Source: Desulfobacteraceae bacterium 4572_35.2 (GTDB lineage Bacteria; Desulfobacterota; Desulfuromonadia; Desulfuromonadales; Desulfuromonadaceae). Taken from it: DNA of 34,107 bases. The position numbers and the translations under genes were made by a program. Each line of letters opens with the position of its first letter. The first letter of the stretch is position 1. Location: NCBI GenBank assembly GCA_002084665.1, contig NBLY01000041.1, positions 1 through 34,107 on the forward strand, written 5' to 3'. Under the pieces are notes generated by a model that was not told the DNA's origin, ran no database searches, and saw only the letters and a list, made by a program, of their open reading frames with translations. Below are positions 1,014 through 27,317 of this stretch, in pieces.

Positions 1014-1876
1014 CTATTGCGCGAGCGTTTGGCATAAAAAGAGCGTAAGCATATGTTGGGGCATAAACCCGGCGGTCAGTAACAGTTGTGGTGCTCCCTG
1101 TCTCACAACATACCAAATATTCTTTTTCTCTTGGGTTGGACCACTTAATTCCACTAAAAAAGCAGGATTGCGTAATGTCCTATTGTCCGTGAACCTGATG
1201 GCAGCAGATGTGTGCTCCCTTGTTTAAGTTCAACAAGCTGACGATTGAGGGAACAACGAAAGCCAATAGCCTGTTGTGAGTAAGATCCTGCCAGTATAAT
1301 GAGGTCATCATGGGTTAACGGATGATTGAAGCGAATGGTTGTTGTTTTTAGCTCGTGATCTCCCTTGAGTAGTGTGACGTTGCTCAGCATATCAATGGGG
1401 CGACCGGAGGGTGCCATTTGCGGCTTAAAACTGTTCAGGCGCAGGAAGTAACCACTCTGTGAAGGTATGGCGATTACTTCACCTTCGCCAATACTGTTAT
1501 TGCTGCTGCGCATGCCGTAAATACTTCCGCAGGCGTAAGCGATGACCACGAGTATAAAACCGAAATGGATGAGATACTCGCCCGCCGTTTTCCAGCGACT
1601 ACTTAAATGACAGCTCCAATCAATAAAACAGCAAAGGGTGTTCAGACCCAAAAGTAAGATGAGTGCGCTGCATAGGGGTATCCATAGGCTGTAGTAGTTT
1701 GCCTGAGGTAGATACGCGTGCCACCATTCCAGTAATGGTTTGCTGTCCATGGTGTTAAACAGCCGTGGGTTGTGCATGATTTGTGCTGAACCGAAAATCG
1801 CGATAAGCGTTGTTGCACTGGTGAGGATAATAGTGGTCTTGGCAGAGCAGCAGAATTTCCATAATTGACGAAACAT
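1014..1876 (-). pseudogene. resB: ResB-like cytochrome c biogenesis protein, probable frameshift near 1215-1225
   Basis: MFRQLWKFCCSAKTTIILTSATTLIAIFGSAQI...IHFGFILVVIAYACGSIYG...; a second frame continues as FTDNRTLRNPAFLVELSGPT, which resembles ResB (NPAVLVEL-type segment). ATG at 1876. Confidence 0.6.
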
Positions 1877-1893
1877 TTTGTTTCCTGACGGTA

Positions 1894-2691
1894 TTATGCG
1901 AGAGGATGGCTGCTTTTCATAAGCAGACCAATTCCTAGGTAGGTAAAGAGCACGAAAGCAAAGCCCAAAATAGAGAGCCATGCATAGCCGGTTCCTTGCC
2001 AATTGCGGATAAATTTGGCGTGGCACATGCCAGCAAAATATAACCAGATTAACGATGACCACAGTGCTTTAATATTCCAAGAAAAATAATATCCCCAAGC
2101 GATATAGGCCCAATAACTACCGAAAATCAGACTGAGAGTAAAGAAGCAGAAACCAAGGAAAATAGCTTCTTCGTTGAGCTGCTGTAACATGCTTCTTGAT
2201 GGCAGTGGTAATGCCGATGTTTTGCCCTGAATGAGATAAAGTACCGCTAAAGAGAAGGCCATGGTAAACAGTGCATAACCGAGAAAAGAAAAGACGATAT
2301 GCAGAGTGAACAGCGGCGTATCAAGCATTGGAATCAGCGCGGGGGGGCTTGGGTCTCGCGGCAGCGCGATGTGCAGAAGGATTAGATTAAGCACCATGAC
2401 AAACAGACCTGCGCAGGCGAGGCGATAGCGCAGTTCAAAATACACGTAGGTCGCGGCGAGAGCCCAACTAAAGAAAAACAGAGTTGAGAACAGATTGGTG
2501 ACCGGTAAATAGCCAGCGGCAAACCAACGTAGCCCAAGACTGAGGCTTTGACAACCAAACGCAAGAAGTACTGTGCCTAGGGCTAGCTGATGCAGCCTTG
2601 GCCAGCGTAGACATGCGTGTGCTATATAAAGTACAACGCTAATGCAATACACAGCAAAGCATCCATTAAGAAGAAGTGCGTTAATATACAT
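1894..2691 (-). CDS. ccsA: Cytochrome c assembly protein, CcsA/ResC family
   Basis: Multi-TM protein with SYWAYIAWGYYFSWNIKALWSSLIWLYFAG, a diverged WWD-type motif; adjacent to resB. Confidence 0.75.
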   Translation of the reverse strand: MYINALLLNGCFAVYCISVVLYIAHACLRWPRLHQLALGTVLLAFGCQSLSLGLRWFAAGYLPVTNLFSTLFFFSWALAATYVYFELRYRLACAGLFVMVLNLILLHIALPRDPSPPALIPMLDTPLFTLHIVFSFLGYALFTMAFSLAVLYLIQGKTSALPLPSRSMLQQLNEEAIFLGFCFFTLSLIFGSYWAYIAWGYYFSWNIKALWSSLIWLYFAGMCHAKFIRNWQGTGYAWLSILGFAFVLFTYLGIGLLMKSSHPLA

Positions 2692-2793
2692 CTGCTGCTT
2701 CCTTCGAACGATGAGAAGTTATGGCTTTGTTGGACAGGGTTTTATTCTGCCCCACTGCACCGGTGGGTCATGTTTTGCCTGTCAATATAAGAA

Positions 2794-2866
2794 CCTCTTG
2801 CAGTAATCGTCATTCCAGCCTGCGCGGGGATGACGATTACTGGATTTTCAAGAGTATTGCAAGAGG
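2794..2866. repeat. REP-like nested hairpin
   Basis: Outer arms CCTCTTGCA (2794-2802)/TGCAAGAGG (2858-2866); inner arms CAGTAATCGTCAT (2801-2813)/ATGACGATTACTG (2830-2842). Confidence 0.8.
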
Positions 2867-2909
2867 CATAAAATAAATTGGTTTTTATACTATGGGCAGT
2901 GCCTCTCAT

Positions 2910-4962
2910 TTATTTGGCATCGGTGTCACAAAAAGAGATTTTGTAGCGGTCCCAAATATCAAGAGCAATCCCCATCGGTTTCATCATGGGAACGGTATAG
3001 GTGTGGAACTTTTTGCTGTACAAGTACTTGCGGCACTTTGATATGTAGTCAGAAAAACCCCGTGGTGAAACGATCAGTGGTTTTTTCAGCTCTAAGCGTA
3101 GATCGGCAAGTTTTTCGGGTAGATATTCCGAAAGGGTAGGCACCTGAAAGTAGATCGCACTGAGGATAATGTCGGTGTTGGGGTCTTCATCGATAATTCG
3201 TAAAGTATCGATTAAGCGCTCATCGCAACAGTTGCCAAACAGGTCGATGGGGTTGCCACCGATCCCCTGCAGGATATGGTCTTTATCAATGTGGTCAACG
3301 CTGCCCATATTGTCACTAATAAGGGCGCGCAATTTTTCTTGTGTTTGCGCGGAGTAGTTAGCCAGCGGCAGCCCTACCGACGTGACTTGATCGGCCAATA
3401 AAATACCAGAACCGCCGCCGACACTGACGATGCCAACGCGCTGGCCTTGCGCTTGAGGCTGAGTGGTTAGGATAGATAGAATATTGACCAGTATCTTTGT
3501 ATCTTCCGTTAACTCTTCAATAAGGTAGAGACCTGATTGGCGGCAAGCTGCGCGAAAGGCTTCATGGCTTCCTGCTAGAGTCGCGGTATGTGACAGCGTT
3601 GCGGCAGCCCCTCCGCCAGCACCCCCTTTGATGATAATGACTGGCTTCTTTTCAGCGATCTGGCGGCTGACATTCATGAATTCGTAACCGTTTTCAATGC
3701 CCTCAAGATAGATAGCGATAATTTTTATCTGCGGGTCTGCACCCATGTGAGCAAGAATATTTGTTACGCTGACACTGCTGGCGTTACCGCATGAGACGCA
3801 TTGGCCAAGATTGACTTCATCGGCCTTGAGCATCTCTTTTAATTCTAGGCTGACACCGCCACTTTGAGAAATGATGCCGATGCCGTTGGCTTGTTCAATG
3901 ACGCTGGTTCTCTGCGCGGGGATATAAAAGGTATTAAGCCCGGTGAAATTGTCGATCACTCCCATGCAGTTGGGGCCGATATAGGCCACATTGTATTTTT
4001 TACTTAGATAGATCAAGCGATCCTCCAGATCGGATCTTCCTGCCTCGGCAAAGCCATCGCTGAAAATAATGGCCCCTTTACCACCCATTTGGAAGGCTGC
4101 TCAGTGACGGATAGCAGGTTAGCCCTTGAATGGTTTTCAATCGCGGATGAACCGGAAAAATCTTGTCGATTCGCATTGAGTTTTTCAAGATGATCCCACC
4201 CATTGTTCCGGGGCGCGATGCGCCGACTATGGCAACCGATTCGGGGGTAAAAATGGCCTGAAGACTTTTTAGCTTTTCAGCTAAATGCTCATCTGCAACA
4301 GGCCGGAGCAGTGGTTCGCCCTGAATGACCCGTGTATCGACGATGTTGACATCATTCTCATAAACGATGACTGGGTTGAGATCGAGTTCATGAATCTCAG
4401 GATGATCCGCCATAAGACGGGAAATATTCATTGCCAGATCGATGATCGACTCTTTGTCGAAAACATCGCCGCGGTAACCGTCTAATATCTGACCAGCCTT
4501 GGTTTCGGCCAGCATATCCAGTACATCTTCACGGGTTAAAATTCCGACACCGATAGCAACATCAGCAAGCAATTCGACATTTTTCCCGCCTAGGCCAACC
4601 ATGACTACCGGTCCGAAAGCGGGATCCTGCTTAGCGCCAACGAGTATTTCCAAACCATTTTTGGCCATCGGTTGCACCAAAATACCGTCCAACTCTACGA
4701 CTCCGACATTTTCGACGTTTAACAATAGCTGTTTATATGCTTTTTTTATTGCTTCTGGGTCTTGAAGGTTTAAAAAAACGCAACCAACATCGCTTTTGTG
4801 GATAATTTGAGCAGAGATCCCTTTTATAACAACTGGAAAACCTATTTTTCCTGCATCTTCTAGTATCTCATCAATGTTTTGCGCCATCTCTCCCGGCACA
4901 GAGATGTGGTAGTTATTTAAAAGTTGTTTTGTTTCTTTGAACCCGATTTGAATTTTACTCAT
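2910..4962 (-). pseudogene. Acyl-CoA synthetase (ADP/NDP-forming), ATP-grasp plus CoA-binding/succinyl-CoA ligase-like, split by a frame change near 4085
   Basis: N-terminal part MSKIQIGFKETKQLLNNYHI...PVVIKGISAQIIHKSDVG (ATP-grasp) to FTPESVAIVGASRPGTMGG; C-terminal part MGGKGAIIFSDGFAEAGR...IGPNCMGV...GIISQSGG...LSHTATLAGS. The two ORFs overlap by 11 bp and part of the CoA-binding domain is missing. Confidence 0.8.
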
Positions 4963-5042
4963 GTGCGCCCCTTTTAACCATTGATTTAAAAAAAGTACAT
5001 TTTTGGTATTTATAGCTGAACAGATCAATAAAATAAAGAATT

Positions 5043-5093
5043 AAAGGCTCATCGCTGTTTCAAATTACCCACTTGAAACAGCGATGAGCCTTT
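5043..5093. terminator. Strong hairpin terminator between the M24 gene and the acyl-CoA synthetase gene
   Basis: AAAGGCTCATCGCTGTTTCAA (5043-5063)/TTGAAACAGCGATGAGCCTTT (5073-5093), 21-bp perfect stem, 9-nt loop. Confidence 0.85.
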
Positions 5094-5097
5094 TAAG

Positions 5098-6028
5098 TTA
5101 ATCCACGTGGATCAGGCCAGGATGGTTGCCTGTGATGCATCGCCCCCCTTGAGGGGTGACGATAAAGGTGTTTTCGGTGCCGACCATACCGATACCAGCG
5201 ATCCCTTTTTTTGGTTCAATCGCCAGCACCATATTTTGTTGCAGTGGTTCATCAAATCCCTTGGCTAATACTGGCCATTCATCAATGTGCAAGCCAATGC
5301 CGCAACACAACGCTTATGGATCTCCACCGCGCTCTGTGGCAATTGTCCCTTGTAGATATAGGTCATCGTTTTATCGGTGTGATAGCCATCAACGCCGCAA
5401 CCAATATCAACAAAAATTAGATCATCATGCTGGAGTGTTCGCTGCCGGCTCCCTAATAGTGGAACTGCCGGACTCATGCCGTAGTTGCCGCCGGGACCAT
5501 CGAATGAGGTGGGGTAGATAGAGCTTTCGCCAAAACAGATGTGGCCGAGGAGGATCTCGGTGTCATACATGCTGAAGCGAGCGATACCATGGTGGCCCTC
5601 CCTGATCATTGCAGGGTAAAGTGCGCCGCCTAGATCGGCTTCTGCCATATCGTCGTGCAGCAGCGGTGGTAGTTTGTTGACGAGAATATGCGTTGGTACA
5701 TAGCGAGGGGAACACGCTCTGTTTCGAGATGAATCGTTGTTGGTAGCGGTGTCATTGCCGCGGCGGCATCGCGAAAACTGTGCATAGGGCGAATGTCGTT
5801 AAATTCTGATTCGTCCTGTGCGCGTTGCAGGCTACGACGTACCCAATAGATTGCTGGTTGGTCTCTTGGGATCAGCAGGACACCATCTTGCATGGTGCCA
5901 GTGAAGTAGAATTGATTGATTTTGCTAAAAATAGCGAGGAGTTGCCATGCAGGGCAATCGTGGTTCATGCGCGAACGGATTGCGCGTTGGCGTTGCTCCA
6001 GTTCCAATTTTGGTACGTTGGTAAGCAT
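5098..6028 (-). pseudogene. M24 family Xaa-Pro aminopeptidase, broken into three frames
   Basis: Fragments MLTNVPKLELEQRQRAIRSRM..., DDLIFVDIGCGVDGYHTDKTMTY..., and [33 protein letters not shown]... are consecutive pieces of a creatinase/aminopeptidase fold in different frames. Confidence 0.85.
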
Positions 6029-6219
6029 AGTGATCTCCTTTGCTGTGCGTGTAGATTGCTAGTGAGAGTTAAGCTTGTCAATGGGAATTAATTTTTTGGT
6101 CGATATTTTGCATAATTACCTACTGCTGTTGCATTGAGCTAGCCGTGAGAGACGATTTGTGAGGGTAGTCGTATATTGTCGCAGGTAAATATCTGTTGTT
6201 TTAATGATAAATGTGTTTA

Positions 6220-6349
6220 GTTATTAGTGGCTAATTCAGCTGACAAATTGGCAACGCCCATTGCAGGGGACGCATTGAAGCCATCCATGGTGACAAATAC
6301 CCTTTCCATGGACGGTGCCAGTTCAGCTAAAATTGTGCTGAATAGTTAC
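6220..6349 (-). repeat. MITE-like dispersed repeat, copy C (diverged)
   Basis: Shares CCCATTgCAgGGGACGC, GCCATCCATG, ACCCTTTCCATGG and terminus GTGCTGAATAGTTAC with copies at 17611-17766 and 25294-25419; left boundary approximate. Confidence 0.6.
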
Positions 6350-6443
6350 TTTTATTATTCTGAAGTAATTAAATTAGAGGACGACTTTCGCGTGATCTAG
6401 CTGGTTAAATAACGGGGTTGCGTGATGACGAGATGGTGATGTT

Positions 6444-7304
6444 ATGGGTGATTTGGCAAATTTTTTAATTATTTTTGGTGCATTGATCCTTGTTTTGGCG
6501 CTGTTTCCTGTTGATAAGCTCAGGAGGCGGTTGCCGATTGGCTTATGTCGACGATCGTGGATGTTCTTATCGACGTTAATTGTCTTTTTCTTTGTTGGTT
6601 ATCTCTTTTACGCCTACCTGTTTTGGGGGTGTGCGCTCCATTGGTCAGAGATGGTGGTGCCAGCTGTTTTCTTTTTTGGTGCTATATTTGTCCTTATTGT
6701 TTGTACGCTGGCAGCGAAAACAGCAGATGATGTGACGCGATTATGTCATCTAGAACATGAGAATGTGACTGATCCACTGATGGGTATTTATAACCGTCGC
6801 TATCTGGATCGCTGTCTAAAGCAAGAGGGTGCTAAGGCAAAGAGGTACGGTCTTGATTTTTCGGTGATGATGATCGATATCGATTATTTCAAGAAAGTTA
6901 ACGACACCTATGGCCACAGTGTTGGCGATCAAGTCTTGCAGTCTCTAGCTCAAATGATTCAAGGCAGTGTCCGTGACTTTGATCGGGTGTTTAGGTACGG
7001 TGGTGAAGAGATCGTGGTGTTGTTGCCTTATACCAATTGTGACGGTGCCATACTGCTGGGGCAGCGTTTATGTGATTGGGTGGGGGAACGACCCCTTGCT
7101 GAGCACGCCGGTAATAGTATTTCAGTCACCATTAGTGTTGGTGTGAGTTGTCTGTGCCCAGGGGTGGAAGATGTGGGGACCATGATGGCACGGGCCGATA
7201 GGGCACTGTATAGTGCTAAAGAGAATGGTAGAAATCGAGTTGAACGCGCTGCTGCACCTCAATTAACCAATGATCAATACGATAAGTTGATCATTAATGC
7301 ATAA
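6444..7304 (+). CDS. Membrane-associated diguanylate cyclase (GGDEF) with I-site
   Basis: N-terminal TM segments, DPLMGIYNRRYLD, DIDYFKKVNDTYGH, RDFD (RxxD I-site) five residues before GGEEI, ADRALYSAKENGRNRV. Confidence 0.92.
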   Translation: MGDLANFLIIFGALILVLALFPVDKLRRRLPIGLCRRSWMFLSTLIVFFFVGYLFYAYLFWGCALHWSEMVVPAVFFFGAIFVLIVCTLAAKTADDVTRLCHLEHENVTDPLMGIYNRRYLDRCLKQEGAKAKRYGLDFSVMMIDIDYFKKVNDTYGHSVGDQVLQSLAQMIQGSVRDFDRVFRYGGEEIVVLLPYTNCDGAILLGQRLCDWVGERPLAEHAGNSISVTISVGVSCLCPGVEDVGTMMARADRALYSAKENGRNRVERAAAPQLTNDQYDKLIINA

Positions 7305-8762
7305 TTTCCCCTGTAAATTATTAACTAATTATCGTCTGCGAATCTTTGCTACAGGGTTGTGTATCTTGATGCTGGTGCTGACGGTTTTAAGTGCCTATCA
7401 TTACTATGAAGACCGCTCTCGGGTGATGGAAAAAATTGACCAACGTCTCTATGCTGGTGCGACAGGGTTGCGCTATGCCGTGGGAGATGCGTTTCATAAT
7501 CGTAAGCTACAGCCAAATATGTCGTTGCAAGAGGATTATTTTCAAGCGAATTGTACTCTTGCTAAATTGACACACGATCTTGATCTTAAAAAACTTTACA
7601 CCCTTATCTCTGTTGATGATGGCCTGTATCAGATCCTTTCAAATGTGTGTGAAGAACCTATTAATGGGGGGCACAAGCATTTTTTTGCCCTTTATCCAGA
7701 TGCTGGCTTGGAAGGGGCTGAGGCGCATCGAAGTGCGGTGCCACGTTATTATGATACGGAGGATCAGGTCGGCAGTTATCGTTCGTTGTTGATCCCCTAT
7801 GTCACCGCGGGAGGGTATCGCTACCTTGTTGGTGCCTCTATCGATATTAGCCTTAATCATGCCCTTGCAGAAACACTGCAGCGGGCATTGGCGCAATGTG
7901 GCATCTTGTTGCTGTTGTCTTTTCCTTTAACTGCACTGTTTGTTTGGCCGTTGTTGTGTATTGACGGTTTTAAAGATATTAATCACTACTATGGTATTCA
8001 TGTAGGTGATCAACTTTTGATCAGTGTTGGCCGCTGTATCAAGGCACTTATCCCTGCGGGAACTCGATTGTATAAACTGGATGGTGATGAATATGCCCTG
8101 TTGTGCGAATCTTCTCCACGCAGTATCTCTGTCGATTATCTGATCTCGCGCATTAATGAACAGCGCATCAATATTGAAGATGCTGAGTTTCGTCTCTCCG
8201 TAACCGCTGGTGTGGCGCAGGGGACAACGCAACTTATTGAACATGCTGACCTTGCTCTTAAGGAAGCTAAACGTGTCTTAAAACCGTATAAGCACTACTC
8301 TTCGTACCTGCATACGGTACAAAACAGTCAGGCGAATCTCCTGTGGACCTATAAATTGAAGGATGCTATCGATAGCGATCGGATTGAAGCTTACTTTCAG
8401 CCTATTTATGATAATAGGCGATTAAATCGTTTATCGATCAAGTTCGGGTTTATGGGGTGCGCGTAGCGATTGATGATTTTGGAACCGGCTATTCAAACTT
8501 TGATCATATCTCTCATCTGGATGTTGATTATATCAAGATTGATGGCGGCCTCATTGAGCAATTAAATAGCTCTGATCGGTCGAAGACAATCGTTGAAGCG
8601 ATTATCCATTTTGCTAAAGAGTTAGAGATTGAGACCATTGCCGAATATGTTAGTGATGAATCGTTACAGCTGATGGTCAAAGAGATGGGGATCGATTATT
8701 CTCAGGGCTATTTTATCGGTAAACCGCAGTCTTCAGCTACTATTACCATTCAACGGGTTTGA
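7297..8762 (+). pseudogene. GGDEF-EAL protein with internal deletions; EAL domain split across two frames
   Basis: IDGFKDINHYYGIHVGDQLL...LDGDEYALL (degenerate GGDEF with start of domain missing), DRIEAYFQPIYDNR (EAL start), then in another frame VRVAIDDFGTGYSNF...VDYIKIDGGLI...TIAEYV...YSQGYFIGKP. Confidence 0.85.
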
Positions 8763-16875: not shown

Positions 16876-16978
16876 AAAAAGAATCCAATGTTGAAGGTGA
16901 ACATGGTCTGCTGATACTATTATATTGCAAAATAAAAATTTATTAGGATAGCTATTTTTTTTGTGTGTGGAAGGTGGA

Positions 16979-17068
16979 AAATGATGATTGTATACAAAGT
17001 GAAGGTGTTATCTGGACGTTTTTAAATGATGATTGTATACAAAGTGAAGGTGTTATCTGGACGTTTTT
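16979..17068. repeat. 45-bp perfect tandem duplication carrying two TTGTATACAA palindromes
   Basis: 16979-17023 equals 17024-17068; palindromes at 16988-16997 and 17033-17042, in the divergent intergenic region. Confidence 0.95.
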
Positions 17069-17533: not shown

Positions 17534-17610
17534 TTTTATCGTTTAGAAAAATATTTAAGGGGAGGTAGCCGATGCTATCTCCCTTTTTTCGTTTACACGT
17601 AAATTATTTT

Positions 17611-17766
17611 GTAATTATTCAGCACTCATCCATAAGGGCTTGTGTTACCCATGGAAAGGGTGTCTGTCGCCCGGATGGCGACAGTCAAGCCACATGGATG
17701 GCCACACTTACAAACAATCGGCGTCCCTTGGAATGGGTGACTCAAGCTCTTTTGCTAAATAGTTAC
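17611..17766 (+). repeat. MITE-like dispersed repeat, copy A
   Basis: Termini GTAATTATTCAGCAC / TTGCTAAATAGTTAC (12/15 inverted match); core CCATGGAAAGGGTGTCTGTCGCCCGGATGGCGACAGTCAAGCC; matches the reverse complement of 25294-25419. Confidence 0.8.
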
Positions 17767-17790
17767 ATTCTTTTTATAATGGGTTTTTTG

Positions 17791-18504
17791 ATGCTACAAA
17801 CACCAATTAAAACAGTCTTGTTTGATCTTGATGGTACGCTGCTCGATGTTGATATGCATCAGTTTGTCCCTGCCTACCTTGATGGGTTGGCCGAAAGCAT
17901 TGATCCAAAATTGGAACGCAAGACATTTGTTGAAACGATGATCTCGCGTACCATGGAACGTTTAGCCAGTGATGATGGTTCGCAAACCAATGAAGATTTT
18001 TACCGTAAAGCGCTACTTTCTGATTTAGGTATTACATCCGCCCAGTTTAGTGCTGGGCTACAACTATTTTATCGTGATCATCTCAGTCAACTTGAACCGC
18101 TGGTCACATCGTTTCCCTTAGCGCGAAAGCTGATTGAACGCTGTCAATCACTTGGCCTCGATGTTGTTATCGCCACTAATCCTGTTTTCCCGCGCCCAGT
18201 TGTCGATGCCCGCTTGCAGTGGGCTGGCGTGGGTGACTTTGACTATCGTTGGGTCACCAGTTATGAAAATAGTTGCTACTGTAAGCCAAATCCACACTAC
18301 TTTACCGCCATATTTGATGAATTGGCCTGTGATCCGCAAAGTGTTTTGATGGTCGGTAACGATACCGAGCATGATCTTAGTGCTTCACAGTTAGGTGTCA
18401 CTACGTTTTTAGTTGAAACATGGATGATTGACCGTCAAAGCCCGTTTGTTGCCGACCACCGTGGTAGTCATTTAGATCTGTATCACTTTTTAGCTCAATT
18501 GTAG
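17791..18504 (+). CDS. HAD superfamily hydrolase
   Basis: KTVLFDLDGTLLDVDMHQF, VIATNPVFPRPV, CKPNPHYF, MVGNDTEHDLSASQLGVTTFLV. Start set at internal ATG because the upstream ORF extension reads through repeat copy A. Confidence 0.9.
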   Translation: MLQTPIKTVLFDLDGTLLDVDMHQFVPAYLDGLAESIDPKLERKTFVETMISRTMERLASDDGSQTNEDFYRKALLSDLGITSAQFSAGLQLFYRDHLSQLEPLVTSFPLARKLIERCQSLGLDVVIATNPVFPRPVVDARLQWAGVGDFDYRWVTSYENSCYCKPNPHYFTAIFDELACDPQSVLMVGNDTEHDLSASQLGVTTFLVETWMIDRQSPFVADHRGSHLDLYHFLAQL

Positions 18505-18639
18505 GCCGTGGATTGACAGGTATAGAACGTTGATGTGTTTGACAAAATAGTACTTTTTGGTTAACCTTTGCGACACTGAAAGTGTAGGATAAGCCTCTCT
18601 TTTTTTCGATCACTTTTGCCCCCTACACAGGAGATGTTG

Positions 18640-18909
18640 ATGGCGCGACTAGTAGATGATCCTGAACTTGCTTTTCGGTTAGCCCGAGCAATAGTTTCTG
18701 ATATTGCGCTTTATAATGCAGATAAGGTCAGCGAAGGGGTCAAGAATGATAACATTTTCGATCTATTGTCTGATGAGTTGCAAGAGGGCCGTGAGCACTT
18801 TGCTGAACGAACCGCTGATACGATAACTGACCGTAATCAAATTTTTGATCGTGCCATTGTCGATGTCATGATTAAGCAAGCTGGCAAAATTGAGAGTTCT
18901 ATTTGGTAA
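18640..18909 (+). CDS. Small conserved-looking hypothetical protein upstream of rluD
   Basis: MARLVDDPELAFRLARAIVSDIALYNADKVSEGVKNDNIFDLLSDELQEGREHFAERTAD...; RBS aggag; stop adjacent to the rluD start. Confidence 0.75.
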   Translation: MARLVDDPELAFRLARAIVSDIALYNADKVSEGVKNDNIFDLLSDELQEGREHFAERTADTITDRNQIFDRAIVDVMIKQAGKIESSIW

Positions 18910-19926
18910 ATGGATAAAACTATAGAGTTATATTTTGAACCGGGCCAAAGTGTTGAACGCTTGGACCGGTTTTTGTCTCATGAGCTAGCTGAGCTGAGTC
19001 GGTCCCAGCTTAAGAAACTTGTTGATCAACGGCAAATTATTGTCAACGGCGAGGCGGCAAAGGCGGGTCTGCGTTTGCGTGGAGGGGAAAAAATCCACAT
19101 AGTCATTCCGGCCGCTGAAGAGATTGAAGCAGTTGCCGAGCAGTTGCCATTAGAGGTGCTCTACGAAGATTCCGATCTGATTGTGGTTAATAAGGCGGCA
19201 GGGATGGTCGTTCACCCCGCCTGTGGCCACGCTAGTGGTACGCTGGTCAATGCCTTGTTGTATCATTGCCATGACCTGTCGGGGATTAGTGGCGAGCTGC
19301 GCCCCGGTATTGTCCATCGCCTCGATATGGATACGTCGGGAGTGATGGTTGCCACTAAAAATGATATGAGTCACACTCATTTGGCTGCGCAATTTAAAGC
19401 CCACACGGTGAATCGTCGTTACGTGGCCTTGATTCATGGCCTCATTGACGAGAATCGTGGCACGGTTGATCAACCCATTGGCCGCCATCCAACCCAGCGG
19501 AAAAAAATGAGTTCAAAGTGCCGCAATGGTCGCCATGCCGTAACCCATTGGAAGGTGCTGCGTCGCTACGAGTCAGACCGTTTGATGCTGATTGAATTAC
19601 GCTTAGAGACGGGGAGAACGCATCAAATTCGCGTCCATTTTTCCGAACTCAACTTGCCGATCATTGGCGACCCGCTCTATGGCAATCGATCACGAGCTAA
19701 TGGGATGAACGATGCGGCCATTCGACAACATATTCAACACCTCAACCGCCAAGCACTTCATGCTCGATTGCTCGGTTTTATTCATCCTCGTAGTGGCGAG
19801 TATATGGAGTTTACTTCACCCATTCCAGACGATATAGCAAGTATCCTTTGCGTTTTGGATGAAAAGTATGATATTGAGCCACTCTCTTTTTCTCATGTTT
19901 CATTGAGTGATGAAAATCACGTTTAA
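18910..19926 (+). CDS. rluD: Pseudouridine synthase, RluD family
   Basis: S4 domain RLDRFLSHELAELSRSQLKKLVDQRQIIVNG; catalytic segment PGIVHRLDMDTSGVMVATKN; LETGRTHQIRVHF. Confidence 0.95.
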   Translation: MDKTIELYFEPGQSVERLDRFLSHELAELSRSQLKKLVDQRQIIVNGEAAKAGLRLRGGEKIHIVIPAAEEIEAVAEQLPLEVLYEDSDLIVVNKAAGMVVHPACGHASGTLVNALLYHCHDLSGISGELRPGIVHRLDMDTSGVMVATKNDMSHTHLAAQFKAHTVNRRYVALIHGLIDENRGTVDQPIGRHPTQRKKMSSKCRNGRHAVTHWKVLRRYESDRLMLIELRLETGRTHQIRVHFSELNLPIIGDPLYGNRSRANGMNDAAIRQHIQHLNRQALHARLLGFIHPRSGEYMEFTSPIPDDIASILCVLDEKYDIEPLSFSHVSLSDENHV

Positions 19927-19953
19927 CAAAATAGTATCGGAGCAAAGCAAATC

Positions 19954-20757
19954 ATGGATTTGGTCAAATGTGGAAAGATAACGTGTTTACAAGCAGGTTG
20001 GTCGCAAGAGGGTTCTGTTGTTGCGGGTGTTTCAACACGTAATGGTGGTCTTAGTCGTCCACCGTATAATTCGTTGAACCTGAGTACTAATACCGATGAT
20101 CCTGAGTATAACGTTGAGGGCAATCGCTCGACATTTCTCAATGAGTTTGGTGTGTCGATGCACCATCTGTTGTTGGTGAAACAAGTTCATGGAACCGATG
20201 TGTTGGTTGTTGATAGTAAAAACCACGATGTTAGCCATTTTCAAGATGTCGCCGCCGATGCAATTGTCACCAACCAGCCGAATTTGATGATCGGTGTTCT
20301 GGTTGCCGATTGTTTTCCTGTGATATTGTTTGATCCGATTAAGAAGGTTTCAGCGGCTATCCATGTCGGCTGGCGCGGGGCTGCTCAAGGGATTGTTGGC
20401 AAAGCGATTGAGGCGATGACTGAAGAGTTTGGTTGCGATATTAAAGAGATTAAGGCGATGGTTGGTCCGGGGATCAGTGCTGATTATTATCTGGTTGGCA
20501 AAGATGTTCGTAATGCTTTTCGCACAGGGGCAGGCGATTGGAACGATATTGCCGAGGAGGTTGAGCTCGGCCTGTGGAAACTTGATATTCAGCGCAGTAT
20601 TGATCTTCAGTTGGCTGCTGCTGGTATCGTTGGCAAACAGCGTGAGATGAGCGATCTGTGTACATGGAAGCAGCGCGAGTTGTTTTTTTCCTATCGCCGC
20701 GATGAAGGTAAAACAGGTCGTCAGCTCGGCTTTATTATGTTTCAGGATAACGCTTAA
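19954..20757 (+). CDS. pgeF: Multicopper polyphenol oxidase (laccase-domain)/YfiH family
   Basis: VAGVSTRNGGLSRPPYNSLNLSTNTDD; VKQVHGTDV; ADCFPVILFDP; AAIHVGWRGAAQGIVGKAIEAM. Confidence 0.94.
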   Translation: MDLVKCGKITCLQAGWSQEGSVVAGVSTRNGGLSRPPYNSLNLSTNTDDPEYNVEGNRSTFLNEFGVSMHHLLLVKQVHGTDVLVVDSKNHDVSHFQDVAADAIVTNQPNLMIGVLVADCFPVILFDPIKKVSAAIHVGWRGAAQGIVGKAIEAMTEEFGCDIKEIKAMVGPGISADYYLVGKDVRNAFRTGAGDWNDIAEEVELGLWKLDIQRSIDLQLAAAGIVGKQREMSDLCTWKQRELFFSYRRDEGKTGRQLGFIMFQDNA

Positions 20758-20781
20758 CGATTGAATAGAAATCAAGATAAG

Positions 20782-20819
20782 AACAACAAAGGGAGGCTTT
20801 CGAGCCTCCCTTTGTTGTT
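20782..20819. terminator. Bidirectional terminator with UUCG tetraloop
   Basis: AACAACAAAGGGAGGCT-TTCG-AGCCTCCCTTTGTTGTT, 17-bp perfect stem, between convergent pgeF and trkH. Confidence 0.92.
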
Positions 20820-20889
20820 TGAACTGAAGCTGAAGTAGTGAGCCGCCCGACGGCAAATAGACTCTTGAACCCACAGCTGCAGCCGGAAT

Positions 20890-22188
20890 CTATTTACGCC
20901 AAAATGATGGTAAAAAGAGGACTAATACGGTGAACAGTTCGAGTCGGCCAAGCAGCATGCAAAAAATGAGCACGCTTTTGCCAAAGGCTGATATGTGGGC
21001 AAAGTTATCAACGGGGCCGACACTGCCAAGTTGGTCGACAGGGTTATTGCCGAGCTTAACCAAGCGTACCGCCCGAGGGTGGATGAGGTGATAAAGTTGA
21101 ACTGTGCCGTGTTTAAAGATCAGTAGAATACGCGCCACCTTCATGCCGCCACCGGTTGATCCAGCACAGCCACCAATAAACATCAAAAACAGTAAAATGT
21201 ATTGGGTTAATACCGGCCACAGTTCAAAATCGGCGGTAGCAAACCCTGTGGTTGTTAAGATCGATGCGGTTTGGAAGGCACTGTAGCGTAGGTTGTCGAT
21301 CACTGAATCGTAAACAGTTCCTTGGTTCATCCACATTAGGATGGCAACAGCACCACAGCTGATAAGGAGATAGAAGCGAAACTCCTCGTTACGAAAATAT
21401 TCACCAATGCGACCTTTTAAGGCGTAGTAGTGGAGGGAAAAGTTGACCCCTGCTAAAAACATAAACAGGGTGATCACCCAGTCAATATAGGCGCTGTCGT
21501 AAGCGGCAATCGAAGCATTGCGGGTCGAAAATCCACCTGTAGCTAAGGTGGCAAAGGAGTGACAGATGGCATCATAGAATGACATGTTGCCAGCCATTAA
21601 TAGCAGAGTTTCGAGGGCGGTAAAAATTACATAGACCCCCCAGAGTAACTTGGCGGTATCTTGAATGCGTGGTTTAAGTCGATCGGCTGTCGGCCCGGGA
21701 ACTTCCGCTTGAAATAGCTGCATGCCGCCAACGCCGAGCATGGGTAAAATGGCTAATGATAGGACGATGATCCCCATGCCGCCGATCCAGTGGGTCAGTG
21801 AGCGCCAAAAGAGGATGCTGCGTGGCAGACTCTCGATGTCGGTGAGAATGGTTGATCCGGTAGTGGTGAAGCCACTCATGGTTTCAAATATGGCATCAAG
21901 GGGGAAGCTGATGGCACCTGAAAGAAGATAGGGTAGGGCGCCGAAAACGGCAAATGTCAGCCAGCCAAAGGTGACGACGGCAAACCCTTCGCGCACCGAA
22001 AGTTCCTTCTTGTTTTTAAATATTTTTATCAGCATCAAGCCAGTGGTAAGGCAAATCGCTGATGACAGTGTGAACGCGGTGACCGTCCCCTGGTGCTCGT
22101 AAAAAGCAAATGGTAGCGGCGTGAGCAGGGCCAGTGATAGGCACACCAGCAGTGCGCCGAGAATATGGAGAATAAAAGTAATTTTCAT
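20890..22188 (-). CDS. trkH: TrkH family potassium uptake protein with apparent in-frame loss of part of the C-terminal repeat
   Basis: Pore loops FTTTGSTIL, LATGGFSTR, TTTGFATADFELWP; ends LGSVGPVDNFAHISAFGKSVLIFCMLLGRLELFTVLVLFLPSFWRK. Segment between VKLGNNPVDQ and LGSVGPVDNF is much shorter than expected. Confidence 0.9.
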   Translation of the reverse strand: MKITFILHILGALLVCLSLALLTPLPFAFYEHQGTVTAFTLSSAICLTTGLMLIKIFKNKKELSVREGFAVVTFGWLTFAVFGALPYLLSGAISFPLDAIFETMSGFTTTGSTILTDIESLPRSILFWRSLTHWIGGMGIIVLSLAILPMLGVGGMQLFQAEVPGPTADRLKPRIQDTAKLLWGVYVIFTALETLLLMAGNMSFYDAICHSFATLATGGFSTRNASIAAYDSAYIDWVITLFMFLAGVNFSLHYYALKGRIGEYFRNEEFRFYLLISCGAVAILMWMNQGTVYDSVIDNLRYSAFQTASILTTTGFATADFELWPVLTQYILLFLMFIGGCAGSTGGGMKVARILLIFKHGTVQLYHLIHPRAVRLVKLGNNPVDQLGSVGPVDNFAHISAFGKSVLIFCMLLGRLELFTVLVLFLPSFWRK

Positions 22189-23520
22189 CTATGCAAAAAA
22201 CTTCTCAATTTTGCTTAAGGAGTCTGGCAGGGCAAAAACAACCACTCTGTCTCCCGCAGTGGCAATTTCATAGCTTGAGCCGTGAACAATGACACCAATA
22301 ATTGCCCCATTGGGAAAGTTGATCTCCTTGAGGGGGATACCGATGATTGCACTACTTTGCTGTACTTCAAATTCAAGCACTTCAGAATTGCTGCCCTCAA
22401 TGGTTGCCAGCGAGATCACCCCACCGCGGCGGACATATTTAAGGATGGCCCCTGCTGCCGATAGCCGTGGTGAAACACAGGCATCAATGCCAAGCGAGGG
22501 GGCAAGGTTGAGCAACTCTGGTTTGCTGATGAGTGCCAGCGTCCGACTTGCGCCGTGCTGCTTAGCTAATAGCGCACAGAGGATGTTGGTTTCATCCTTC
22601 TCAGTTACCGCGATAAAAACATCGGCGTTATTGATCCCCTCTTCAATTAAGGCGTGAATGTCGGTACCTTCTACATTGATCACCATAGTTTTGTTTAGCT
22701 TAGCCGAAACCTTGCGACAGCGTTGTTCATCGCGGTCAACGAGTCGGACGTCGAAGTGTTGATTCTCCAGCTGGGTTGCGATGCGAACTCCTATTTTACT
22801 GCCGCCGAGAATAAAGACGCGCGGCATCTTTTTTTTCTTTGCCTTCGGCTGGAGTAAATATTGGATTGCCGGCAGGTCTTTTTTGTGGGCAAACAGGAAG
22901 ATGCTGTCACCGTCTTCAATGCGGTCTTCACCACGGGGGATGATGGTCGTTTCGTCGCGGGTGATCGCAGTAACGACAAAATGATACATGCCGCGCAGTT
23001 CGCCGAGTTCGCGTAAGGTCATGCCGCACAGTGGACTTTCACTGCCTATTCGGTAGCCGAGAAACTGAATTTTCCCCTCAACAAATTCCGCAACATCAAA
23101 GGCACCACTGCGACAAGAGATTTTCACCATCTCATCGGCTACCTCATCGTCTGGATTGATGAGCAGATCAATGCCGAGTTTCTCCTTAGAGAGGATGGCA
23201 CCGTGGCTTCGGTACTCAATGCTTTTGACGCGCGCGATGCGTGTTTTAACATCGTATTCGCGCGCCAGAAGGCAGGCGAGAATGTTGACCTCGTCCATAT
23301 TGGTGACGGCGATGAAAATGTCAGTGTTCTTGATGTCGGCCTGTTCTAAAATTTCAGCACTGGCACCATTACCAGCAAGGCCCATTACATTCAGGCGATC
23401 CTGAGCTTTACGTAGGTGGGTTTCATCTCGATCAATAAGGGTCACTTCGTGACCCTCTTGAGATAGCCGTTCACACAGGAAAAAACCAACCTGTCCTGCT
23501 CCAATAATAAGTATTTTCAT
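22189..23520 (-). CDS. trkA: Trk system potassium uptake protein TrkA
   Basis: MKILIIGAGQVGFFLCERLSQEGHEVTLIDRDE and second VFILGGSKIGVRIATQLENQHFDVRLVDRD (two TrkA_N), TrkA_C segments; stop abuts the trkH ATG. Confidence 0.96.
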   Translation of the reverse strand: MKILIIGAGQVGFFLCERLSQEGHEVTLIDRDETHLRKAQDRLNVMGLAGNGASAEILEQADIKNTDIFIAVTNMDEVNILACLLAREYDVKTRIARVKSIEYRSHGAILSKEKLGIDLLINPDDEVADEMVKISCRSGAFDVAEFVEGKIQFLGYRIGSESPLCGMTLRELGELRGMYHFVVTAITRDETTIIPRGEDRIEDGDSIFLFAHKKDLPAIQYLLQPKAKKKKMPRVFILGGSKIGVRIATQLENQHFDVRLVDRDEQRCRKVSAKLNKTMVINVEGTDIHALIEEGINNADVFIAVTEKDETNILCALLAKQHGASRTLALISKPELLNLAPSLGIDACVSPRLSAAGAILKYVRRGGVISLATIEGSNSEVLEFEVQQSSAIIGIPLKEINFPNGAIIGVIVHGSSYEIATAGDRVVVFALPDSLSKIEKFFA

Positions 23521-23738
23521 AAACGTATGCGCTACTCCAAAATAGTTACAATATCGTGCCACGTCAATTATCTCGTAGCTGCCGACAGCTTAGATAGCCA
23601 GTCAGAATGATGTCGATACCATATTAAGGTTTAAACGTGCTATCTTTGACATAGATTCCGATAATCTGCAAGAGATGGTTGATCGTTTTTGCGCTGCTGT
23701 GGGCGGCTTTTTGTGCCAAATATGGAGATAAATTGATG

Positions 23739-24032
23739 ATGTATGTGGATGTGCCTGAAGAGGTGTTGCGTAAGGAGCGTGCCAAAGCACGTGAGCTACG
23801 CAAGAGTGGTTGGTGGAAAAACCGGATTGCCTTGGGGGCGTGTCATTATTGTGCTGGAACGTTTGCGGCCAAAGAGTTAACCCTCGACCATGTTGTTCCA
23901 CTAGTGCGTGGCGGTAAAACAGCCAGAGGGAATTGTGTCCCTGCATGTAAGGCCTGTAATAGTAAAAAACAAGATCTATTGCCGAGTGAGTGGCAGGAAT
24001 ATTTGAATCACTTAGAACAGTTAGTAGACTAA
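23739..24032 (+). CDS. HNH endonuclease
   Basis: CHYCAGTFAAKELTLDHVVPLVRGGKTARGNCVPACKACNSKKQD; internal start at MMYVDVPEE preferred. Confidence 0.9.
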   Translation: MYVDVPEEVLRKERAKARELRKSGWWKNRIALGACHYCAGTFAAKELTLDHVVPLVRGGKTARGNCVPACKACNSKKQDLLPSEWQEYLNHLEQLVD

Positions 24033-24100
24033 TTTCTCGTCCATGTTATTTTTAGTGCTTATCCCTTGCGCCACCACCTTTGCAATGTCATAGTCACGCC

Positions 24101-25015
24101 ATGTCAAAACCATATCTAGTTTATTCTCAATATCTTAAACAGCGCTTTGGTGGTCGTGTACATAAGATCTCAATTGATGCGGGCTTTTCATGCCCGAATC
24201 GTGGCGGTTCGCGAACCAACCCGGGCTGCCTGTTCTGTGAACCCAATGGTTCAGGGTCGTTCGCGATTGCTCGCCGTCTGTCCGTGGCAGGGCAGGTGGA
24301 GCATGGCAAAGAGGTGATGATTCGCAAATATAAAGCTAAATACTTTATTGCCTATTTTCAGCCTTTTTCAAATACCTATGCCCCTGTTGAAAAACTACGT
24401 GCTCTTTATGATGAAGCGTTGGCAGTCAGTGATGTCGTTGGTTTAGCCGTAGGTACCCGACCCGATTGCCTCCCCATTGAGGTTGTTGATCTGCTGCATG
24501 AATACCACCAACGGACCGATCTGTGGTTGGAGATTGGGGTACAGAGTTGTCATGATAAAACCCTCAACTACCTGCGCCGCGGCCACGATTATGCCAGTTT
24601 TCTCAATGCTTATGCTGCGGCCAAGGAGCGCGATATACTGGTGTGCGCCCATGTCATTTTAGGGCTGCCGGGCGAGAGCCATGAGGAGATGTTGGCCACT
24701 GCCGATGAGATGGCGCGCTTAAAGGTGGATGGAATTAAGATCCACCTGCTCCATGTTTTGCAAGATACCGCCTTGGGGGATCGTTATCAACGGCGAGAAT
24801 TCGAAATTCTTTCACGCGAAGCCTATGTCCAGTTGGCGGTCGATTTTTTAGAACGAATACACCCTGATACGTTAATTCAACGCTTAACTGGTGATGGCCC
24901 ACGCGATATTTTATTGGCCCCACGCTGGTCGCTAAAAAAATGGGAAGTGCTTAATGCCATTGAGGATGAGATGGCTAAAAGGGGAACGGTACAGGGAAGT
25001 CACTGCCGTTTTTAA
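24101..25015 (+). CDS. Radical SAM protein, TIGR01212/YhcC family
   Basis: RFGGRVHKISIDAGFSCPNRGGSRTNPGCLFCEPNGSGSF...YFIAYFQPFSNTYAPVEKLRALYDEAL...LEIGVQSCHDKTLNYLRRGHDYASF. Confidence 0.93.
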   Translation: MSKPYLVYSQYLKQRFGGRVHKISIDAGFSCPNRGGSRTNPGCLFCEPNGSGSFAIARRLSVAGQVEHGKEVMIRKYKAKYFIAYFQPFSNTYAPVEKLRALYDEALAVSDVVGLAVGTRPDCLPIEVVDLLHEYHQRTDLWLEIGVQSCHDKTLNYLRRGHDYASFLNAYAAAKERDILVCAHVILGLPGESHEEMLATADEMARLKVDGIKIHLLHVLQDTALGDRYQRREFEILSREAYVQLAVDFLERIHPDTLIQRLTGDGPRDILLAPRWSLKKWEVLNAIEDEMAKRGTVQGSHCRF

Positions 25016-25127
25016 TTGCTGAAAGGGTGTGCCTAGAGGGGTTGCTGGTGGATGGTGAGTTGTTAATCGGGGCTGAGGTGGTCTGGGTACACCACACCAT
25101 ACGCTGAGATGCTGCTTAAAGAAGATT

Positions 25128-25253
25128 CTAGTGGATGGTAATTTCTACCTCTTGGAGTGTTTGTGCTGTTGCTGTTTCAGCAACACCGTCCCATGAAATA
25201 AAGACCATTGATGCCCATAAAATACTGACTATTAGAATGATGATTCGTGACAT
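25128..25253 (-). CDS. Possible 41-aa exported peptide or gene remnant
   Basis: MSRIIILIVSILWASMVFISWDGVAETATAQTLQEVEITIH; ATG at 25253, hydrophobic N-terminus; not in the supplied ORF list because of length. Confidence 0.25.
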   Translation of the reverse strand: MSRIIILIVSILWASMVFISWDGVAETATAQTLQEVEITIH

Positions 25254-25293
25254 GGCGGTTACCATACACGACCTTTATCATTAAAATCAAGAC

Positions 25294-25419
25294 GTAACTT
25301 CAGTAAAAGAGCTAGAGTCACCCATTCCAAGGGCATGGGGCTTGACTGTCGCCATCCGGGCGACAGTCACCCTTTCCATGGGCGACCCAAGCCCTTATGG
25401 TTGAGTGCTGAATCGTTAT
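25294..25419 (-). repeat. MITE-like dispersed repeat, copy B, flanked by CAAGAC direct repeats
   Basis: Near-identical to the reverse complement of copy A over most of its length; CAAGAC at 25288-25293 and 25420-25425. Confidence 0.82.
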
Positions 25420-25465
25420 CAAGACAACTATTTCGTAAAGTTCGCTAAGGTGTTCGTGTGCGATT

Positions 25466-27317
25466 TTGAATGGAAAAAATCATACCTTTACCAATAAGGC
25501 GGCTAAAGAGATGCGTGATCGCGTCATCGAAGAGGTGGGGCGTAAAAAGGCTAAGGGGTTAATTGTTGCCACCTTTCACTCGTTGGGTGTGAGGATTTTA
25601 CGCGAAGAGATTGAGCGCCTTGGTTATAAGAGAAACTTTTCGATCTATTCAGCCTCGGATCAATTGCGTCTTGTTCGTGATCTGGTTCAGGGGAATCTCA
25701 TCGAGGGGACAACTGTTGATCCTGATCGCGTGCTGTGGCTGATCTCGCAGGCAAAGAACCGCCTGATTACGGCGGGAAACTATCAGGCCAATCCACACGA
25801 TGATTATGACCTGATCGTGGCGCACACCTATCCCCGTTATCAGCGGATGCTCAAGGCCTGCAATGCTATTGATTTTGATGACATCCTCCAACTGACGATC
25901 CAGCTGTTTAATGAATTCCCAGCAGTTCTTGATCAGTATCGCCACCGTTTTCGTTACATTATGGTTGATGAATATCAGGACACTAATGTCGTGCAGTCGC
26001 AGCTGCTCCAGCTACTCAGTTCGTATCATCATAACCTCTGTGTAGTGGGCGATGATGACCAGTCAATTTACGGTTGGCGTGGTGCTGAACCCGGTAATAT
26101 TCTCGATTTTGGCAAAGACGAGGCCGACTCAAGGGTGATTAAGCTTGAGCAGAACTATCGCTCAACGGGGCGTATCCTTGCCGCCGCAAATGCGCTGATT
26201 CTGCACAATACTGAACGGCACGGCAAGCGACTGTGGACCGCTGGTGACGAAGGCGTTGCGGTTCATTATCGCTGTTGTGATGATGGCGAAGATGAGGCGA
26301 TGGCGGTCGTTGAAACGATCCATAAAGAGCGCTTTAGTCGCAAGTTAGAGTATCGCGATTTTGCCATTCTCTATCGCACTAATGGCCAGTCGCGCGCATT
26401 TGAAGAGCAATTGCGCTATGAAAATATCCCTTACGTCATCATCGGTGGCCAGCAGTTCTTTGACCGCAAAGAGGTTAAAGATGCCTTGGGATATTTAAAG
26501 GTGTTGGCCAATCCGCACGACGAAGTCAATTTGCTGCGTATTCTCAATTATCCGAAACGGGGGATTGGCGAAACCAGCGCCGAAAAGATTATCCAATCAT
26601 CCATCGAGCAGGATCAACCGTTATGGGAGATCTTGCAACAGGCACGGCATATCCCCGAGTTGGGCGACAAAGCCATCGCCTCAATCGAAGCGTTTGTGCT
26701 GTTGCTGGAGCGCTATCAGCGCCAATTTCGTCACCCCACGCAGATGGTGGCGATTGTTCAGGAGCTGTTTCGTGAGCTGAAGCTCGAAGAGGAGCTGTTT
26801 CGTCAGGCTGATGACCCTGTTAAGGCGCGGCGGCGGGTGGAAAACCTCCATGAGGTGATTAACTCCCTCTCCACCTATGTCGAACGCGAGCCAGTGCCAA
26901 CCCTTGGTGGTTTTCTCGAAAAGGTTTCACTGCTTGATCGCGATGAGCCTGCCCGTGGCAGCAAAGAGGAGAAGCTTAAGCAGGATGCTGTGGTGATGAT
27001 GAGCCTGCATTCGAGTAAAGGTTTGGAATTTCCGTGTGTTTTTTTAGTCGGCATGGAGGAGGGTTTTTTGCCCCACAACAAGATTGTTGACGAGGGTGGT
27101 GATATCGCCGAGGAGCGGCGGTTGTGTTATGTCGGCATGACACGGGCGCGGCAAAAATTGGTGATGATATGGCAAATTGCAGCCGAAAGATCCGAGTCGC
27201 TTTCTGCTCGAAATACCAGAGGAACTGCTCGAAAAAGAGGGGGCGATGACTGTTGAAGCGTCCCCATTAGAGCAAGAGGCGCTGGCGAATCATTTTTTTA
27301 GCGGTGGTGCTGTTTAA
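25466..27317 (+). pseudogene. UvrD/Rep/PcrA-type superfamily 1 helicase lacking the N-terminal Walker A region, with C-terminal frameshift
   Basis: Begins at TFTNKAAKEMRDRV; retains VDEYQDTNVVQSQLLQLL, GDDDQSIYGWRGA, LEQNYRST, LMSLHSSKGLEFPCVFLVGMEEG-like and YVGMTRAR. The C-terminus continues in another frame as KDPSRFLLEIPEELLEKEGAMTVEASPLEQEALANHFFSGGAV. Confidence 0.88.

Follow-up and report, generated by a model that had tools for sequence, protein, structure and literature searches.

A short IS66-type transposable repeat of Desulfuromonadales that probably carries a TwoAYGGAY-like, predicted CsrA-binding RNA core

The contig NBLY01000041.1 of Desulfobacteraceae bacterium 4572_35.2 (assembly GCA_002084665.1), analysed over its full 34,107 nt and referred to as the window, contains three intergenic copies (A, B and C) of a short repeat. 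This repeat is probably a miniature inverted-repeat transposable element (MITE) mobilised by an IS66-family transposase and carrying an RNA core similar to the Rfam family TwoAYGGAY (RF01731), with its copies predicted to act as dispersed sites for the global regulator CsrA. A preliminary description of the window had proposed a MITE-like repeat family and recognised no family name; multiple copies, shared boundaries, 8-bp target-site duplications (TSDs), empty sites and cognate elements were all found, and the parent is now identified as the IS66 family. Comparisons covered the window's own genome (G000; 1.9 Mb, 80% complete), its closest relative (G005; 88% complete), sets of 58 relatives and 136 genomes of the order, and 277 genomes sampled from the class.

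Copies in the window and distribution

Copies A and B align with 91% identity over 85 nt and again with 91% over 35 nt, and a covariance model of the core, built from 27 relatives, recovered all three window copies (E = 2e-19, 8e-14 and 4e-7); their resemblance is not due to chance. The parts are as follows, with TIR denoting a terminal inverted repeat and P1 to P3 the stems described below.

17603..17610, no strand: left TSD of copy A, ATTATTTT; 7/8 against the right flank; G005 has the empty site ATTATCTT
17611..17766, + strand: copy A, an IS66-type MITE in its long form (156 bp); core model matches 17641-17744 with 86 bits
17611..17624, + strand: left TIR of copy A, GTAATTATTCAGCA; family consensus GTAACTATTCAGCA
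17636..17660, + strand: left arm of the long stem P1 of copy A, from folding and pair counts
17661..17687, + strand: hairpin P2 of copy A, TGTCTGTCGCC[CGGAT]GGCGACAGTCA, with GGA in the loop, as in 72/76 distinct relatives
17691..17701, + strand: remnant of hairpin P3 of copy A, CACATGGATGG, from the alignment; loop ATGGAT retained, stem weakened
17725..17749, + strand: right P1 arm of copy A, from folding and pair counts
17753..17766, + strand: right TIR of copy A, TGCTAAATAGTTAC
17767..17774, no strand: right TSD of copy A, ATTCTTTT, from comparison with the empty site in G005
25286..25293, no strand: first TSD of copy B, ATCAAGAC; empty site AAAATCAAGACAAGTATTTCC in G005
25294..25417, - strand: copy B, short form with P3 deleted
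25343..25369, - strand: hairpin P2 of copy B, loop CGGAT
25418..25425, no strand: second TSD of copy B, ATCAAGAC
about 6227..6349, - strand: copy C, most decayed, with a single GGA hairpin remaining
6336..6349, - strand: intact terminal repeat of copy C, GTAACTATTCAGCA

The preliminary description had delimited copy A exactly, with its 156 bp, its imperfect inverted termini (GTAATTATTCAGCA / TGCTAAATAGTTAC) and flanks matching at 7/8 positions. Copy B had rightly been placed on the opposite strand, but the element proper ends at 25417 and not at 25419, and the CAAGAC borders noted on either side, although part of a genuine TSD, belong to a direct repeat of 8 bp, not 6 bp; this repeat is perfect, and the final two bases of one terminus of copy B are absent. 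Copy C, given before as 6220-6349, is present with an extent nearer 6227-6349; one terminus is intact and the other decayed, its flanks match at 6/8 positions, its central part has apparently been lost by deletion between two CCATGGAYGG repeats, and it is the oldest of the window copies. Copy A had been taken as closer to the full form, and it is indeed the long form (156 bp), but the family also includes a short form of about 143 bp that is intact; copy B is a short form carrying an internal deletion. As had been stated, no open reading frame (ORF) belongs to the element itself. A promoter-like match pointing outward from the right end of copy A was at chance level.

Copy numbers in the own genome were derived from searches. 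Blastn with copy A gave 19 matches there, well above two or three copies, and matches in 15 of the 58 relatives; the covariance model gave about 22 copies in the own genome. With the same model, members were recovered in 45 of the 136 genomes of the order, often with 20-30 or more per genome, and in the class-wide sample the only positives were those 45, all of the own order. The carriers are metagenome-assembled genomes and isolates of the Desulfuromonadales, for example Pelovirga terrestris. The element is intergenic, with a length of 125-157 bp. Of the ten own-genus genomes, five have it and five, including near-complete ones, do not, a patchy presence that fits a mobile element.

Mobility and the IS66 parent

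Both TIRs (GTAACTATTCAGCA) were recognisable in 95 copies, 31 of which have identical 8-bp flanks, while identical flanks at other lengths (3-7 and 9-12 bp) occurred in 0-5 of the same copies. After orientation of 88 copies, 29 were perfect at 8 bp, and reshuffling the flank pairs 1000 times yielded none. The target is AT-rich (72%). Orthologous empty sites, proposed earlier as a check, were found in G005 for both A and B: the site of copy A reads ...GTAAATTATCTTTATTATGGG with the target present once, and that of copy B reads AAAATCAAGACAAGTATTTCC, the element in the window being bordered on either side by ATCAAGAC. In a reciprocal case, G005 has a copy at a spot where the window (near 20763) is empty. 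Judged from these flanks, the copies were inserted with duplication of 8 bp of target, and TSDs and empty sites together indicate insertion events of a mobile element. Copies of the L029 and L067 types have imperfect ends and yet perfect duplications.

A Y1 transposase gene of the IS200-like/REP-associated type (REP, repetitive extragenic palindrome) at 51-446, near the start of the window, raised the alternative that the repeat is moved by a REP-associated tyrosine transposase. That gene has its own 21-bp inverted repeats, GGGGTCAAGTCGGCTGTTGAC (1-21 and 921-941), which are unrelated to the element. To our knowledge, Y1 enzymes do not make target duplications, and the alternative was rejected on the clear 8-bp duplications around the element, which leave it scarcely credible.

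The cognate transposase with matching TIRs, which the preliminary description had proposed to look for, was found in related genomes. Scanning the relatives for GTAACTATTCAGCA revealed two inverted pairs spaced 1.72 kb apart in G057, which enclose an ORF of 472 amino acids whose product is recognised as an IS66 transposase by Pfam DDE_Tnp_IS66 (150 bits) and NCBIfam transpos_IS66 (276 bits). Relatives of this transposase occur in 5 of the 136 genomes of the order, and six intact IS66 elements of 1.70-1.73 kb, all with these ends, were located in G057 (two), G112, G051, G039 and G012; two of the six are surrounded by perfect 8-bp duplications. Four of the five genomes hosting the IS66 parent are rich in the MITE. 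The comparison supports the MITE reading and identifies IS66 as the parent family.

With the IS66 family and the MITEs derived from insertion sequences, the element shares the 8-bp TSD, termini starting with GTAA that are identical to those of intact IS66 elements of the order (single-ORF type, DDE_Tnp_IS66), and a short, intergenic, ORF-free form. It differs in that its interior, a conserved foldback bearing a pair of GGA hairpins, is not visibly derived from an insertion sequence, and in that the host genus yielded no transposase. An additional element of 203 bp (L070; G034:C51:43393-43595) has the same GTAACTATTCAGCA ends around an unrelated interior, so the cargo between these IS66 ends is not of a single kind. 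ERIC and NEMIS are intergenic mobile foldback elements of about 100-160 bp, potentially co-transcribed with neighbouring genes; they resemble the present element in size class, foldback, intergenic position and mobility, and differ in termini, duplications and hosts. No GGA-loop core is known in either. Literature searches on the terminal sequence, on MITEs of Desulfuromonas or Geobacter and on IS66 MITEs gave nothing matching. The multicopy sequences of G. metallireducens (PMC2700814) were set apart by their descriptions in the main text of that paper, in which the consensus motifs differ.

The interior fold

RNA folding gave z = -6.2 for copy A and -3.9 to -9.7 for intact relatives. The common fold consists of a long closing stem (P1), a three-way junction and two hairpins (P2 and P3). 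Across 25 diverse copies, both partners had changed in 18 of the 30 pairs, and 94.3% of cells were paired, compared to 82.9% in shuffled and 32-52% in slid controls. Identity between copies was about 0.55-0.58 in the outer P1 columns and 0.81-0.98 in the core, where unpaired GGA and AAG positions are among the strongly conserved ones; as core identity is well above that of outer P1, constraint is stronger on the core than on the arms.

In 76 distinct sense matches, GGA is present in the P2 loop in 72 and in the P3 loop likewise in 72, with variable neighbours. The P3 loop keeps its A and its GGA unchanged in all 25 sequences, with variation at the positions in between and following. Another 118 matches show mainly ATGGAT, AGGGAT or ATGGAC as the P3 loop, and CGGAT, TGGAT or ATGGAC as the P2 loop. 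The loop GGA appears mostly as A-N-GGA-Y and is retained while the stems change. Between the strands, G-U exceeded A-C mismatches by 172 to 66 across all copies, which are non-independent, and by 14 to 4 among subfamily consensuses, lending weak support to selection at the RNA level.

A covarying conserved fold would also be expected of a conserved, non-mobile RNA gene at orthologous loci, the case that the preliminary description had held against its own proposal. An RNA-like covarying fold is indeed there, but it is carried by a mobile element and not by orthologous loci free of TSDs. Duplicated targets, presence in 5/10 genomes of the genus and many copies per genome speak against such a gene, and the empty sites in G005 led to its rejection; we consider it extremely improbable.

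Relation to TwoAYGGAY and CsrA

The site recognised by CsrA/RsmA is a hairpin loop A-N-GGA-N closed by C-G. The GGA-in-loop rule for CsrA has been summarised (PMC11934962), and TwoAYGGAY has been proposed as CsrA-binding on motif evidence (PMC4333381); no experimental follow-up of this proposal was found in the literature. TwoAYGGAY was recurrently the best bacterial Rfam family for the elements, always on the core strand and with 26-42 bits, at a gathering score of 43 bits. Scores were 33.1 for a Pelovirga copy (L093) and 26.6 for Idiomarina, and nine further matches of 26-42 bits lie within 57 kb, all on the core strand; the highest scores overall were 42.2 for L096 and 36.5 for L030. Rfam at curated cut-offs gave no match over the whole window.

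Elements and TwoAYGGAY have in common the closing stem with two hairpins, loops of the A-Y-GGA-Y type, a CAAG linker and the restriction to one strand. They differ in that the element scores 26-42 bits (<43), in that many of its P2 loops have 5 nt (CGGAT), and in that its core sits inside a transposable element with dozens of copies per genome. The architecture of closing stem and two GGA-loop hairpins is found in intact copies and is damaged in the window copies. The intact core is a candidate CsrA-binding RNA with two loops. CsrB/CsrC and RsmX/Y/Z likewise present GGA, the CsrA/RsmA recognition motif, within hairpin loops, but they have many such loops and one dedicated gene, whereas the element has two loops, occurs as dispersed repeats and is predicted to bind CsrA.

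csrA was found in 31 of the 58 relatives and in 67 of the 136 genomes of the order. Among near-complete genomes, 22 of 29 with the element have csrA as opposed to 27 of 55 without it (Fisher p = 0.02, kinship being ignored), and so do 14 of the 16 near-complete genomes with seven or more copies.

In the proposed mechanism, an IS66-family transposase acting in trans would recognise the GTAACTATTCAGCA ends, move the 125-157 bp MITE and duplicate 8 bp of target. The RNA of one strand would fold into P1, the three-way junction and P2 and P3, each capped by GGA. Where an element lands in a transcribed gap, an RNA copy would be made, and a CsrA dimer is predicted to bind both loops; the host transcript could be altered locally, or the pool that titrates CsrA enlarged. 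More speculatively, and rather less likely than not, transposition would scatter paired CsrA-binding hairpins such that a burst of copies creates a distributed CsrA sponge, in bacteria for whose group no RNA antagonist of CsrA has yet been characterised. In Geobacter sulfurreducens, CsrA controls biofilm formation and electron transfer, and no RNA of the CsrB/CsrC type has been characterised (PMC13407953). If the proposal is correct, the element is a candidate RNA partner for CsrA, present by the dozen in many of the order's genomes, transposition is a route to rewiring a post-transcriptional regulon, and the orphan TwoAYGGAY family acquires a relative that is mobile and a function that can be tested. 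Taken singly, TwoAYGGAY, CsrA-binding RNAs and MITEs derived from insertion sequences are already known kinds; the papers searched contained no transposable repeat that unites them. Should the RNA part fail, a clean IS66-type MITE family would still remain, itself not found in those papers.

Several observations weigh against a CsrA-binding, IS66-mobilised element. No copy attains the TwoAYGGAY cut-off of 43, so none is filed as a member, and copy A has no TwoAYGGAY match. The association of csrA with the element is a hint, weak in strength and blind to kinship; csrA was not found in the 80% complete own genome, in the 88% complete G005, or in some near-complete, copy-rich genomes (G012, G118). 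PF03050 (IS66 transposase) was not found in any of the ten own-genus genomes, several of which are incomplete, and mobilisation there either lies in the past or the enzyme is absent from incomplete assemblies. All window copies are damaged, with B lacking P3, C lacking P2 and A having a weak P3. Since loops are lost or weak and csrA was not found in the incomplete genome, these copies are most likely decaying relics; intact copies scoring about 100 bits are present in the same genome (G000:C123 and G000:C99). Private mutations in the arms have no significant excess of G-U over A-C (81 vs 60, p = 0.09), which suggests that single copies are near-neutral after insertion; any selection looks to act on the spreading form, with single copies nearly neutral once inserted. 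No clear orientation bias to flanking genes was seen (stricter count 22 vs 13, p = 0.18), and an antisense bias in a crude first count (31 vs 15) was dropped on the stricter one. The paired GGA loops could have been inherited from one founder without any role.

The main rival is an ordinary IS66-derived MITE with the foldback interior usual for MITEs that have long inverted repeats, arms kept alike by arm-to-arm copying, and founder-inherited GGA loops of no role. In its favour are the termini, duplications and empty sites, the near-neutral private mutations, the lack of a clear orientation bias, and searches of the own genome that recovered neither a transposase nor csrA. It leaves unaccounted for, however, the conservation of the core, including unpaired GGA and AAG, far above that of the P1 arms, the covariation of stems beside a constant GGA, and the same core without these termini in Idiomarina. 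We consider it rather unlikely.

Cores without IS66 termini

Idiomarina aquatica, a gammaproteobacterium, has 28 core matches without GTAACTATTCAGCA ends, many of them in inverted pairs 90-220 nt apart. Both loops keep GGA in 20 of 20 examined copies, and the inner part of P1 varies in sequence from copy to copy with pairing maintained. Cores without both termini also occur in Pelovirga, Geoalkalibacter and Geopsychrobacter. TIRs on both sides were found for 27/43 and 5/5 copies in some isolates, and for 2/10 and 0/10 in others.

As these Idiomarina cores lack the IS66-type ends, the history of the core is wider than its IS66 vehicle. This leads to a further alternative, in which a dispersed, TwoAYGGAY-like CsrA-binding RNA with a history of its own would have been captured by IS66 ends in some Desulfuromonadales, the MITE being one vehicle of several. 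The cores without both termini in the four genera named, the uneven TIR counts between isolates and tandem cores without termini in G004 are in its favour; against it, termini may have decayed in old copies, and the L029 and L067 types combine imperfect ends with perfect duplications. We regard such a capture as a serious possibility, somewhat short of an even chance.

In five of the Idiomarina aquatica loci with inverted core pairs (L309, L311, L288, L302 and L306), the inner P1 arms are wholly different between copies and still paired, and several of these arms are bracketed by a conserved outer GTGATTGA on one side and the conserved core on the other. The strand opposite to the Idiomarina core gives a match of 22 bits to the Rfam Yersinia small RNA Ysr224 (L115, 4709-4788, - strand), so Ysr224 may represent a related repeat that was annotated in the reverse orientation. 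Locus L025 (1-281, G004:C35) is a tandem array of the GGA-hairpin core with a period of 130 bp and without TIRs, with a truncated copy at about 1000-1060.

Other features of the window

At 1-941, the Y1 transposase gene and its perfect inverted repeats constitute a separate mobile element; the gene is fragmented by tandem duplications of 71 bp (411-481/482-552) and 20 bp (330-369). Beside copy B, a UvrD/PcrA helicase ORF (25426-27256) lacks the start and Walker A region in comparison to G005, G002 and G009. Roughly 160 bp have apparently been deleted from it, some 45 bp off copy B, by either gene decay or an assembly error. Adjacent ORF pairs within 1154-8762 resemble single genes split by frameshifts and are either pseudogenes or the result of sequencing errors:

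1154-2691: cytochrome c assembly
2910-5028: acyl-CoA synthetase-like
5265-6028: peptidase-like
7297-8762: GGDEF/EAL

A 45-bp tandem duplication (16968-17057) lies upstream of a small cytochrome c gene. The small HNH protein encoded at 23679-24032, weakly similar to the HNH domains of Cas9d/IscB, is probably an ordinary HNH endonuclease.

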